Part shown: piece by piece, positions 35,140 through 37,157 of the stretch
Numbering within the stretch: the first letter of the stretch is position 1
How the letters are laid out: the number at the start of each line of letters is the position of its first letter
Virus record (IMG/VR): IMGVR_UViG_3300046467_001557
Span: 1-37,270 of that record
DNA from: a virus
Reading direction: 5' to 3' (one strand)
DNA length: 37,270 bases
Notes under the pieces: model-generated
Seen by the model: the letters and a program-made list of their open reading frames with translations, nothing else
Database searches by the model: none
What the model was told of the DNA's origin: nothing
Made by a program: the position numbers and the translations under genes

Positions 35140-35205
35140 GTGCAGAAAATTAGGTGAATCTTTCTTGCCGAATCGCTTGCGTTTTTAGGCTTTTGGCTGT
35201 ATGTT
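35140..35205 (+). promoter_or_regulatory. Cassette promoter box 1
   Basis: A 66-bp region aligning without gaps to 36229-36294 and 37092-37157. It carries TTTCTTGCCGAATCGCTTG at 35161-35179, a -35-like TTGCGT at 35177-35182 and, after 17 bp, TATGTT at 35200-35205. It precedes the 40-residue ORF. Confidence 0.65.
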
Positions 35206-35210
35206 TAAGT

Positions 35211-35333
35211 ATGTTTAAAGCAAGAAAGAAAGAAATTCAAATCGAAGTAAACGCCAGAGCGGGACTTGCAAAGTTTTGCAAAACCCTCGACAAGATCATT
35301 GCAAAAAATAAATCGAAAAAAGTTGCCAAATAA
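35211..35333 (+). CDS. Small basic protein, 40 residues
   Basis: 40 residues from ATG at 35211 to TAA, starting MFKARKKEIQ and ending SKKVAK; about one third Lys or Arg. No membrane segment or known motif. The ATG is only 5 nt past the -10-like TATGTT of box 1, so if the promoter is right the transcript would be nearly leaderless. An AAGAAAGAAAGAAA run lies inside the ORF where box 2 has it in the leader, so the true start could be later or the ORF spurious. Possibly a nucleic-acid binding peptide. Confidence 0.4.
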   Translation: MFKARKKEIQIEVNARAGLAKFCKTLDKIIAKNKSKKVAK

Positions 35334-35368
35334 TTTGACAAACTAGCAAAACTGCATTACCTTATACC

Positions 35369-35569
35369 ATGAACGAAAATAAAATCAGAAACGCTTCAAT
35401 CTACTTTAGCAAGTCCAACAATAAAATCGTCCGCGTAACTCGGGCAAATCAACAGGAAAAAATAGCCTATGTGAAACACCATAACACAGAGCTTGCCAAC
35501 GAGGAAGTTTTCTTCGGTGATCTTGAGCCAGTTACTGGCGAGCAAGTCAAGAAATATCTCGGACGATAA
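35369..35569 (+). CDS. Small hypothetical protein, 66 residues
   Basis: 66 residues. The sequence (ASIYFSKSNNKIVRVTRANQ ... IAYVKHHNTE ... VFFGDLEPVTGEQVKKYLGR) suggests a small beta fold of about four strands and a closing helix. No family was recognised. It follows the 40-residue ORF by 35 nt and precedes an 89-residue gene by 20 nt on the same strand, so it is probably in the box 1 transcript. No strong ribosome site is visible, as for the other cassette genes. Confidence 0.6.
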   Translation: MNENKIRNASIYFSKSNNKIVRVTRANQQEKIAYVKHHNTELANEEVFFGDLEPVTGEQVKKYLGR

Positions 35570-35589
35570 TAGAACGCACAATAAAAAAT

Positions 35590-35859
35590 ATGGAAAATAC
35601 ACGCACAATAACCCGAAAATTAACGCTAGACGAATATGTCGATCTCTTGTATGTACTTAAAAAAAGCCTATGGTCAATTGAGGCAGAAATAGACGCAAAA
35701 AAAGAGAGCATGAAAAAAACCGATTACGCTCCCCTTTATGGCATACATAAAGACACGCACGATTCTCTAGTAAATGAAGCGAATAAAATAAGCACTACAA
35801 TTTCCACCATCGAGGAAAATAGCCTATCCTTATGGTCTGACGAAGAAAGCGGTCAATAA
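35590..35859 (+). CDS. Small helical protein, 89 residues
   Basis: 89 residues, helical, with a likely coiled hairpin (LDEYVDLLYVLKKSLWSIEAEIDAKKE ... LVNEANKISTTISTIEENS). It begins MENTRTITRK, like the MENTVNIPNT start of the 94-residue gene at 36331, and in both cases ATGGAAAATACA is the DNA start. The end has GGTCAATAAAAA, echoed by the next tiny ORF. No family was recognised. Confidence 0.6.
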   Translation: MENTRTITRKLTLDEYVDLLYVLKKSLWSIEAEIDAKKESMKKTDYAPLYGIHKDTHDSLVNEANKISTTISTIEENSLSLWSDEESGQ

Positions 35860-35862
35860 AAA

Positions 35863-35931
35863 ATGTTAAGTACTGTAATTCTCATTCTCGTTTTAGGGGT
35901 GTGGTCAGTTATAAAAGAGACCGCTCAATAA
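35863..35931 (+). CDS. Tiny membrane peptide, 22 residues
   Basis: 22 residues: MLSTVILILVLGVWSVIKET and a two-residue end. A single hydrophobic helix (residues 2-17) followed by a Lys and Glu suits an inner-membrane microprotein. It starts 3 nt after the stop of the 89-residue gene and ends 20 nt before a terminator stem, which makes it a likely last gene of the transcript. It is too short for a firm call. Confidence 0.4.
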   Translation: MLSTVILILVLGVWSVIKETAQ

Positions 35932-35951
35932 AAATAAATTAAACGCCTAAT

Positions 35952-35982
35952 AAAAACCGCTCTATAATGGGGCGGTTTTTTT
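35952..35982 (+). terminator. Intrinsic terminator of cassette 1
   Basis: AAAAACCGC, an 11-nt loop, then GCGGTTTTT followed by TT. It lies just after the last small ORF of the first cassette. Confidence 0.8.
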
Positions 35983-36010
35983 GTGCGTGCATTTTTTTTG
36001 CGTATGTGCA

Positions 36011-36178
36011 ATTAGTCGCAAGTCGTTGATATGCAACGACTTACGGTAACTTGTGCGTGCAATTAGTCGTAAGTACCTGACAGTCAACGACTTACAAAAG
36101 TCTGGCCGTCGTAAGTCGTTGGTATACAACGACTTACGTAAATAGTCGTAAGTCGTTGATAGTCAATGGGTTACGAGA
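36011..36178. repeat. Palindrome cluster A
   Basis: Four copies of a palindrome with consensus CGTAAGTCGTTG-N5-CAACGACTTACG. The sites are 36020-36042 (9-bp arms), 36069-36095 (degenerate, TGAC-A-GTCA centre), 36110-36138 (12-bp perfect arms) and 36147-36175 (degenerate). The spacer AAAGTCTGGCCGTC lies between the second and third. The stretch from about 36055 to 36178 recurs at 36918-37041 in the same orientation. No gene is present. Confidence 0.85.
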
Positions 36179-36228
36179 CCCAGGCTCGAGTCTAACCTAT
36201 TTGGTAATTCCGCATTTGTAACGTAATA

Positions 36229-36294
36229 GTGCACTGAATTAGTTGAATGTTTCTTGCCGAATCGCTTGACATATGCCGTTTTCTGTTGTATTGT
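36229..36294 (+). promoter_or_regulatory. Cassette promoter box 2
   Basis: The best of the three 66-bp boxes: TTTCTTGCCGAATCGCTTG at 36250-36268, a perfect -35 TTGACA at 36266-36271, 17 bp, then TATTGT at 36289-36294. A purine-rich leader (AAGAAAGAAAGAAAAAA) follows before the ATG at 36331. Confidence 0.75.
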
Positions 36295-36330
36295 ATAGTA
36301 TAAGTTAAATTAAGAAAGAAAGAAAAAATT

Positions 36331-36615
36331 ATGGAAAATACAGTAAACATCCCAAACACCTCGAAAGAGATCAAGCAAGCCATCGCAAGACGGCAAACAA
36401 TCCTTTCCGAGTGGCAAGCCAAGGTTGCAAAGACCCGTTGTAAGGTTCGCCGTCACTCTCGCCAGTTACAGGTTGACTTGACCCGTCAACAAATCGTTGA
36501 GCTACGCAACGCTCTTGCCGTTGCTATCGAAGCAGAGAAGCACGCCGAGGCAGTCGCCTTTGTTGCCCGCCTTGCTCCGCTCCGCAAGGATTTTCTCAAT
36601 GGTCTTTTCGACTGA
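36331..36615 (+). CDS. Small basic helical protein, 94 residues
   Basis: 94 residues, rich in Arg, Ala and Gln, mostly helical (KQAIARRQTILSEWQAKVAK; QIVELRNALAVAIEAEKHAE). It has a net positive charge in the first half. It could fold as a small helical bundle or bind nucleic acid; no family was recognised. It is the only gene of the second cassette, with box 2 and an A/G-rich leader upstream and an intrinsic terminator 31 nt downstream, which is good evidence for a real expressed gene. Its GC content is higher than that of the neighbouring small genes. Confidence 0.75.
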   Translation: MENTVNIPNTSKEIKQAIARRQTILSEWQAKVAKTRCKVRRHSRQLQVDLTRQQIVELRNALAVAIEAEKHAEAVAFVARLAPLRKDFLNGLFD

Positions 36616-36646
36616 TCCTTTTAATCTAACCAAATAAACACAATGC

Positions 36647-36672
36647 AACCGCCTCAAGTAGGCGGTTTCTTT
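36647..36672 (+). terminator. Intrinsic terminator of cassette 2
   Basis: AACCGCC, loop TCAAGTA, GGCGGTT, followed by TCTTTT. It lies 31 nt after the stop of the 94-residue gene. Confidence 0.85.
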
Positions 36673-36690
36673 TGTGCCTGTGTGTTTCCC

Positions 36691-36759
36691 TAAGTCGTTG
36701 ACAGTCAACGAGTTACGACGGCCAGACTTTCGTAAGTCGTTGATATGCAACGACTTACG
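36691..36759. repeat. Palindrome pair, inverted block (left flank of 10-bp array)
   Basis: Two palindromes: 36691-36717 (TCGTTGAC-A-GTCAACGA core) and 36731-36759 (12-bp perfect arms around ATATG). They are separated by ACGGCCAGACTTT, the reverse complement of the spacer AAAGTCTGGCCGT found in the other clusters. The block is therefore inverted relative to 36929-36998. Confidence 0.85.
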
Positions 36760-36919
36760 GCAATGGTGCGCTATGGCATGCAAAGGTATGCAATGGTGTG
36801 CAATGGCATGTAATGGTGTGCTATGGTATGCAGTGGTATGCTATGGTGTGCAATGGCATGCAAAGGCATGCTATGGTGTGCAATGGCATGCTATGGTATG
36901 CAATGGTATGTAATGGTGT
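36760..36919. repeat. Tandem array of 16 ten-base units
   Basis: Sixteen consecutive 10-bp units with consensus G-[CT]-[AT]-A-T-G-G-[CT]-[AG]-T, for example GCAATGGTGT, GCTATGGTAT and GCAAAGGCAT. There is no insertion or deletion across 160 bp. Variation is concentrated at positions 2, 3, 8 and 9. One reading frame across it is open, but only because of the repeat. Confidence 0.9.
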
Positions 36920-37041
36920 GCAATTAGTCGTAAGTACCTGACAGTCAACGACTTACGAAAGTCTGGCCGTCCTAAGTCGTTGATATGCAACCACTTACGT
37001 AAAGAGTCATAAGTCGTTGATAGTCAATAGGTTACGAGGCC
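36920..37041. repeat. Palindrome cluster B (right flank of 10-bp array)
   Basis: Three palindromes at about 36929-36957, 36973-36997 and 37009-37035, with the spacer AAAGTCTGGCCGTC between the first two. It is a direct, imperfect copy of 36057-36178 (cluster A). The start GCAATTAGTCGTAAG continues the last unit of the tandem array. Confidence 0.85.
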
Positions 37042-37091
37042 CGCATGCCCGCCTATTTACTATTTGCGCGTTTCGAATTTATAACGCAATA

Positions 37092-37157
37092 GTGCAGTAA
37101 GTTAGTCGAATCTTTCTTGGCTGATTGCTTGACTCATAGCCTCATCTGCCGTATGTT
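37092..37157 (+). promoter_or_regulatory. Cassette promoter box 3
   Basis: 66 bp aligning without gaps to boxes 1 and 2. TTTCTTGGCTGATTGCTTG lies at 37113-37131, TTGACT at 37129-37134, then 17 bp and TATGTT at 37152-37157. Confidence 0.65.

Follow-up and report, generated by a model that had tools for sequence, protein, structure and literature searches.

Small-gene modules with sigma-70-type promoters and paired-palindrome borders in a lineage of uncultivated tailed phages

The keeping and trading of small host-interaction genes by phages is mostly known from T4-type isolates, whose promoter-early/stem-loop (PeSL) cassettes were reportedly described by Arbiol in 2010 and by Comeau in 2014. 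There, an early-type promoter and a stem-loop terminator lie between small genes, and the cassettes are dense where gene content is shuffled (PMC4503421). The authors of the description of the haloarchaeal virus HGTV-1 likened to PeSLs a repeated motif with a TATA-like box and an inverted repeat that precedes many small ORFs (PMC3950731). Two further systems place repeats in comparable regions. The SPBRE of Bacillus phage SPbeta is a 15-bp motif bound by the repressor MrpR in promoter regions and repeated in intergenic regions of an accessory region (PMC10516654). The SAS/ESAS of Cluster K mycobacteriophages are many imperfect inverted repeats with a spacer, mostly in one orientation, in non-structural regions (PMC3203893).

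Here, we analyse a window of 37,270 nt (IMG/VR record IMGVR_UViG_3300046467_001557, positions 1 to 37,270), a partial sequence of an uncultivated phage, running at its edge into a longer array of small genes. Its best reading is a modular early region like the PeSL regions of T4, in an uncultivated lineage and with a new boundary element. As in PeSL regions, a host-type early promoter stands beside an intergenic stem-loop terminator in the window, and both are in excess array-wide. Modules clearly differ between related genomes, and the nucleotide breakpoints give a mixed picture of shuffling at these motifs. Nevertheless, there are distinguishable differences. The PeSL lacks the separate paired-palindrome element with a GC linker found here, the orientation of which is mostly constant per genome; in addition, the window's kin have a long upstream promoter motif, starts are predicted to be leaderless, and the major capsid protein of these phages has no isolate match. 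Compared by description, HGTV-1 differs from the present arrays in that the promoter here is of the sigma-70 type and the paired palindromes are tied to gene ends (PMC3950731). Paired 28-bp dyads near gene ends likewise contrast with a single 15-bp motif at promoters in the SPBRE (PMC10516654), and whereas ESAS sit at translation starts, the elements here adjoin stops and mark module borders (PMC3203893).

The lineage is a little-known group of bacterial viruses in which corresponding places hold different modules from one member to the next. Protein matches include PhoH, terminase and a sigma-like protein (the last at E 6e-6); the terminase stays under 60% to each of the 68 isolate records that it matches, and the major capsid protein found no match among isolates. 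Neither a blastn search of the region against isolate phages nor a search for host evidence returned anything, and one window stretch matched plasmids only weakly (E 0.06). A single bacterial genome contig, L203, has the palindrome pattern; it is probably a phage fragment, because homologs of array proteins lie on it (several of the homolog loci come from the same contig).

The sequence-only reading had drawn attention to three gap-free 66-bp promoter boxes, and these are real: pairwise, 48, 44 and 46 of their 66 bases are identical (67-73%), against at most 34 of 66 elsewhere in the window on both strands (Table 1). The gap-free match over 66 bp stands, but the length itself is only where that reading stopped, since the likeness of boxes 2 and 3 extends about 30 bp beyond it on the upstream side. 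The motif said to be shared, TTTCTTGCCGAATCGCTTG, occurs without mismatch at 35161 and 36250 (0.03 expected by chance) and recurs as a variant at 37113; every box ends in a -35/-10 pair with the claimed 17-bp spacing. A simple promoter scan lists only boxes 2 and 3, because the -35 of box 1 is poor.

Table 1. Features of the cassette region (window coordinates)
Feature	Position	Strand	Remarks
Promoter box 1	35140..35205	+	Upstream motif GTGCAGAAAATTAGGTGAATCTTTCTTGCCGAATCGC; TTGCGT-17-TATGTT; same box in G001, G003, G004
40-aa ORF	35211..35333	+	ATG 5 nt after box-1 -10; predicted leaderless
Second promoter within cassette 1	35335..35363	+	TTGACA-17-TACCTT; ATG 5 nt after -10
Small gene c1a, 66 aa	35369..35569	+	Aligned with homologs from 9 other loci
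Small gene c1b, 89 aa	35590..35859	+	Also in G001
Intrinsic-terminator-like hairpin, then T-run	35952..35980	+	End of cassette 1
Four palindromic units	36020..36180		Starts 36020, 36070, 36112, 36149
125-bp block, first copy	36057..36181	+	Precedes box 2; 93% identity to 36918-37042
Promoter box 2	36229..36294	+	TTGACA-17-TATTGT
Small gene of family c49, 94 aa	36331..36615	+	Homologs in G008, G009, L032, 58-68% identity
Intrinsic-terminator-like hairpin	36647..36667	+	After cassette 2
Palindromic-unit pair 36691, 36733	36691..36760		Inverted relative to pairs at 36070 and 36931
125-bp block, second copy	36918..37042	+	Precedes box 3; palindromic units 36931, 36973, 37010
Promoter box 3	37092..37157	+	TTGACT-17-TATGTT; ATG 6 nt after -10
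Family c1 gene start	37164..37270	+	Cut by window end; matches all 11 c1 members in 10 records

The repeating layout proposed earlier, of box, small genes, terminator and palindromes, also holds. Cassettes 1 and 2 each run from a box through small genes to a terminator-like hairpin, palindromic units stand between cassettes (nine in the window), and box 3 is followed by a gene that the end of the window truncates, the best match of which is 59% identical over 32 aa (E 5e-9). The 40-aa ORF is missing in G001, where the c1a gene begins at the box's own ATG. Structure modelling predicts c1a to be a small beta-barrel (pLDDT 86.6) with weak SH3/Tudor-like matches (best E in the fold search 0.036), and the c49 protein of cassette 2 a two-helix rod (pLDDT 88.0). 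Homology searches gave no known function for most cassette families, and the anti-host role that the sequence-only reading thought possible stays hypothetical.

Models of the box built from the window alone found relatives at E 1e-14 to 1e-8, with two copies in G001, one in G003 and two in G004; a looser pattern recovered only G001 and G003 again. An exact 19-mer had a single match in viral contigs, L003, which the box models scored weakly (E 0.12, 0.05) and which we take as chance. Gene content varies between these relatives: cassette 2 of the window has a c49-family gene, and the second box of G001 heads a different one (a relationship of the latter to a G008 gene, at E 0.22, is not claimed). 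The boxes might instead be nothing more than paralogous promoters that arose by tandem duplication and play no part in gene exchange, and the 93% identity of the blocks before boxes 2 and 3 does indicate a recent local duplication. We consider this quite unlikely: boxes recur in other genomes ahead of other genes, and module content varies in many relatives.

Relatives carry arrays of small-gene modules headed by sigma-70 promoters beside phoH. Strict promoters number 73 in 158 kb of arrays, against 5.2 in shuffles and 131 in 1,350 kb outside, the enrichment being absent from G022, G023 and G026. In 49 of 76 strict promoters, the distance from the -10 to an ATG is 5-8 nt (against 184 of 7,200 random positions), and 38 of the 48 ORFs with such a close ATG belong to families seen in at least two genomes (16 of 18 arrays counted). 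This spacing predicts leaderless mRNAs, and the host-type promoters together with their position suggest that the modules would be expressed early.

The modules are bordered by paired palindromes of about 28 bp with a GC-rich linker, and it is this pair, not the box, that marks boundaries most regularly throughout the lineage. We found 143 pairs in 17 records, mostly within one 7-16 kb stretch near phoH (two clusters in G026); shuffled copies of nine records gave two chance matches in total to palindrome units at a score of at least 8. G025, whose array repeats that of G023, was left out of the counts, as were single unpaired units from the pair statistics. Within a genome, copies resemble one another more closely (linker 0.73) than they do those of other genomes (0.44). 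With G001's one pair set aside, 129 of 142 pairs keep a constant orientation along their genome, whatever the gene direction; the window's own four polarity values are unreliable, because the pair parser splits the 36020-36180 cluster wrongly by linker (36020/36070, 36112/36149). A common polarity relative to phoH across genomes was not established. One G005 element matched phages only weakly (E 0.3).

In co-directional gaps, the element abuts a stop codon within 15 nt in 40 of 97 cases and a start codon in four. It lies in 29 convergent gaps and 16 divergent gaps out of 142, and in five of the 29 convergent gaps both stop codons are within 15 nt of it. This tight fit, the abutment of stops and the GC-rich central dyad seen in many genomes would suit bidirectional terminators or insulators and nothing more, with orientation and within-genome likeness due to descent by duplication. 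We regard this as possible, if somewhat doubtful: a T-run is present on the 3' side, no more than 20 nt away, in just 14 of the 97 co-directional cases, and separate intrinsic terminators precede the element in 16 of 47 stop-to-element gaps (0.35 in shuffles). The palindromes might also be operators at which a DNA-binding regulator, of phage or host, governs all modules jointly, shuffling being incidental. As expected of protein sites, the arm consensus is conserved while a test for arm-to-arm covariation found none, and spacing is near-constant within a genome; as RNA hairpins they show no clear preference for G-U over A-C mismatches (122 to 101), and no RNA family scored near its gathering cut-off. 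SPBRE with MrpR is such a case in SPbeta (PMC10516654). The preference for stops over starts, the surplus of convergent over divergent gaps with its five doubly abutted members, and an orientation independent of gene direction make joint operators unlikely.

Variable small-gene cassettes bounded by paired palindromes also recall mobile systems of the integron or REP/BIME kind; the palindromes would then be sites of a dedicated enzyme. Folded as single strands of DNA, all four true elements tried did better than shuffles. Such a mobile system is most improbable. Tyrosine recombinase/integrase, as in integrons, was found in none of 25 records, some of which may be fragments (PF00589), and the Y1_Tnp (RAYT) gene of REP/BIME systems in none of 22 (PF01797); PF00239 matched in one of 22. 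Unlike integron cassettes, the modules have their own promoters and either orientation, and an attC-like folded strand sits poorly with the negative covariation test, in which the long hairpin paired worse than partner-swapped controls.

That the region might be an array for exchange, as first suggested, is supported by modules and module order that vary between relatives. Of the two observations named beforehand as refuting it, boxes missing elsewhere and gene content between them strictly conserved among relatives, neither was made. G005 and G007, the closest pair, differ by whole modules at elements, where homology breakpoints exceed chance (19 of 40 ends versus 21% expected), and G008/G009 show a mild excess (26 of 136 versus 12%), although masking of elements in this test favours homology ends at them. 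No excess was seen for the window/G001 (6 of 24; 23% expected), G005/G019 (8 of 48; 14%) or G005/G006 (4 of 60; 17%). Efficient homologous recombination would call for a higher identity than the boxes within the window share. A RecA/UvsX family protein was found in six of nine records, the three without a match being the window fragment, G006 and G026. Endonuclease VII as a shared partner was rejected (PF02945 above cut-off in one of 14 records); the HNH protein of the window has a match to phrog_1035 ('endonuclease VII') but none to PF02945.

We consider it probable that what we see here is where a modular accessory region begins in an uncultivated tailed phage, with modules exchangeable via repeats. 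Each module would comprise one to several small non-structural genes under its own host-type (sigma-70) promoter, often so near the start codon that a leaderless mRNA is expected, and would end in a terminator, a boundary element of two palindromes and linker, or both. Because the boundary elements (and the box in the closest kin) are repeated in the array, recombination between repeats could add, remove or exchange modules, most likely through the phage's own RecA/UvsX-type pathway. On the doubtful side, we tentatively propose further that a lineage-wide, protein-bound paired-dyad element of fixed polarity marks the borders of an exchangeable early-gene bank with leaderless mRNAs, acting both as a two-way transcription border and as a site of module insertion, loss or swap that needs no site-specific recombinase.

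A lineage without close isolates thus shows the same logic as the T4-type phages with a different boundary element. Since this element is easily searched, early gene banks may be found and counted in metagenomes. The leaderless early mRNAs predicted here would amount to a way of translation that is uncommon in a phage gene region and open to test, and the array is itself a list of tens of small conserved protein families without known function.

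The structural and packaging genes of the window (IMG/VR virus record, 37,270 bases) occupy the minus strand, and the promoter boxes lie past PhoH on the plus strand, in a region within which the record stops. The terminase matches 68 isolate-phage records, every one below 60% identity, and the putative major capsid protein has no isolate-phage match at E 1e-5; the lineage is therefore without a close isolate in the isolate collection. Homing endonucleases are frequently located near variable regions. Matches related to the HNH/endonuclease VII-like protein of the window also occur in two related viral records, G020 and G031.

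Coordinates of features in the window and of boundary-element stretches in related viral records
Feature	Record	Position	Strand	Remark
Terminase	window	25215-27128	-	
Candidate late sigma factor	window	29741-30598	-	weak match to phage sigma factor family, phrog_1740, E 6e-6
PhoH	window	31471-32202	-	
HNH/endonuclease VII-like protein	window	33681-34835	-	phrog_1035; directly adjoins array
C-rich and T-rich stretches (ACCCCCC, repeated TTTT)	window	34880-35000		before first box
Tandem 10-bp unit, GCAATGGTAT-like	window	36760-36924		sixteen and a half copies; between cassettes 2 and 3
Element stretch	G005 (200 kb)	179.7-188.9 kb		
Element stretch	G006 (138 kb)	93.2-106.2 kb		
Element stretch	G019 (195 kb)	183.7-192.7 kb		
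Three boundary elements	L271 (G031)	16368-16660		direct tandem; GC hairpin linkers CGACCCC-4 nt-GGGGTCG

The three 66-bp boxes, which the sequence-only reading took for promoters heading small-gene cassettes, are genuine, well beyond what chance would give. A 125-bp block, 93% identical between its two copies, stands in front of boxes 2 and 3; thus, the repetition unit takes in the palindromes as well as the box. Box 1 leads to a 40-aa ORF with its ATG 5 nt past the -10 element and box 3 to a gene with its ATG at 6 nt; for box 2, the -10 element and the ATG of its gene are 36 nt apart. The first box of the related record G001 is also preceded by a similar C-rich/T-rich stretch.

The suggestion that the layout may be an array for gene exchange was supported in that relatives carry the box with different genes behind it. 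Among relatives gathered by PhoH and terminase searches (80 loci each), a profile built solely from the three window boxes located the box in G001 (two copies), G003 (one, near the contig end) and G004 (two), with E values of 2e-15 to 5e-8 for four copies and 0.14 for the second G004 copy, which reaches 2e-16, by construction, once relatives join the seed. With relatives in the seed, only parts of the box are recognizable in G008 and G009, both of which have long module runs under the same kind of promoter. The G004 boxes are on the same strand as PhoH, and those of the window and G001 are divergent from it. Homologs of the window genes c1a (87%) and c1b (81%) come after the first box of G001; c1a starts there at the box's own ATG, whereas the window interposes the 40-aa ORF and a further promoter. 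The second G001 box heads a gene beginning MNIQAQISIIREIL, and the second window box heads a c49 gene, a family also present in G008, G009 and locus L032. The third window box heads a c1-family gene with hits to each of the 11 c1 members, which come from 10 records.

Sixteen arrays (runs of small-gene modules near phoH; 158 kb in total) contain 73 strict sigma-70 matches, compared with 5.2 in shuffled sequence, and the 1,350 kb outside arrays contain 131; the arrays of G022, G023 and G026 have no promoter excess. An ORF starts 5-8 nt past the -10 element in 49 of the 76 strict promoters of 18 arrays (exactly 6 nt in 34), compared with 184 of 7,200 random positions and 21 of 109 promoters outside arrays. 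Viewed from the genes, a -10-like hexamer stands 6 nt upstream of the start in 39/377 array genes, where other offsets average 3.2, and in 9/643 other genes, where they average 6.3. Array genes with such a -10-adjacent ATG are read as giving predicted leaderless mRNAs; 38 of 48 candidates, counted in 16 arrays, belong to families seen in at least two genomes. Shine-Dalgarno-like motifs occur in 12% of array genes and 12% of other genes, and this rarity in array and structural genes alike suggests a host that seldom uses them.

Between the modules lies a putative boundary element of two ~28-bp palindromic units and a GC-rich linker. Profile searches showed that the units come in pairs whose spacing hardly varies within a genome (41-45 bp for most pairs of G005, G006, G007 and G024, 47-54 in G023 and mostly 58-60 in G031), giving 143 pairs in 17 records, confined to stretches adjoining phoH (three examples in the table), with two clusters in G026. 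Shuffled sequences of nine records yielded two units in total at score ≥8. The exact palindrome pattern occurred in 28 viral stretches and a slightly different one in one bacterial genome contig; 33 of 36 loci from three pattern scans have homologs of the lineage's core or array genes. L203, a contig filed under a Rhodobacteraceae MAG, bears palindromes and array-protein homologs; it probably represents a phage fragment that entered the bin, or alternatively hints at the host.

When pairs were scored with leave-one-out profiles, 129 of 142 were oriented like the rest of their own genome: 43/45 between plus-strand genes, 47/52 between minus-strand genes, 25/29 in convergent gaps and 14/16 in divergent ones. 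Since this orientation holds whatever the gene direction, transcription does not set it. One pair in the window, where automatic pairing of units is unreliable, is an inverted copy. Of 97 co-directional gaps, 40 have an element that overlaps the upstream stop codon or comes within 15 nt of it, and 4 have one at most 15 nt from the next start; in 5/29 convergent gaps both stop codons are that close. An intrinsic-terminator-like hairpin occurs in 16 of 47 gaps with 25-250 nt from stop to element (0.35 in shuffles). In a wider tally including single units and a duplicate record, 16 of 194 element places fall inside a called ORF, and some of these ORFs may be spurious. The arms pair better than shuffles. 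No arm pair covaries above partner-swapped controls, long-hairpin pairings score below these controls, and G-U and A-C mismatches (122 vs 101) show no clear G-U preference. Because the arm consensus (TAAGTCnTTGA / TCAAnGACTTA) is kept without covariation or G-U preference, protein-binding half-sites would fit the element better than a folded strand.

Of ten array proteins in each scan, three exceed Pfam cut-offs (GP88, Phage_L5_gp82 and DUF7249) and six match PHROGs at E ≤0.01, all function-unknown; the three main cassette genes of the window have no PHROG match. c1a is predicted to fold as a small beta-barrel, for which fold matches of SH3/Tudor type were weak (best E 0.036), and c49 as a helical rod.

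The arrays appear to follow the same logic as the promoter-early/stem-loop (PeSL) cassettes of T4-type phages, as far as the accessible text of PMC4503421 describes them; a motif similar to PeSL is noted for HGTV-1 in that of PMC3950731. The open literature searched held no description of palindromes paired across a GC linker, of their constant orientation or of the start-codon spacing.

Array proteins form shared families that vary in order, neighbours and orientation, with 199 distinct family adjacencies, 61 of them present in at least two genomes. G005 and G007 keep a common backbone, with 79-93% identity in the larger common blocks. A single element of G005, at 184939, corresponds in G007 to an element-module-element-module-element run (57708, 58161, 58534). 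Blocks to either side match (183842-184882 with 56599-57660; 185013-185984 with 58607-59578), and the flanks scored 0.93 on the right and 0.57 on the left. Between flanking elements, this pair also shows an extra module (51660-52876) and different modules (55137-56527). Breakpoint statistics across five genome pairs were mixed. Element linkers are more alike within genomes (identity 0.73) than between them (0.44), a sign of copying within the array. A tyrosine recombinase was found in none of 25 records and a Y1 transposase in none of 22; one of 22 encodes a serine recombinase, and six of nine a RecA/UvsX-family protein. As these recombinases and the transposase are absent or rare in the records scanned and RecA/UvsX is present in most, we favour homologous recombination as the route by which modules may change in these arrays.
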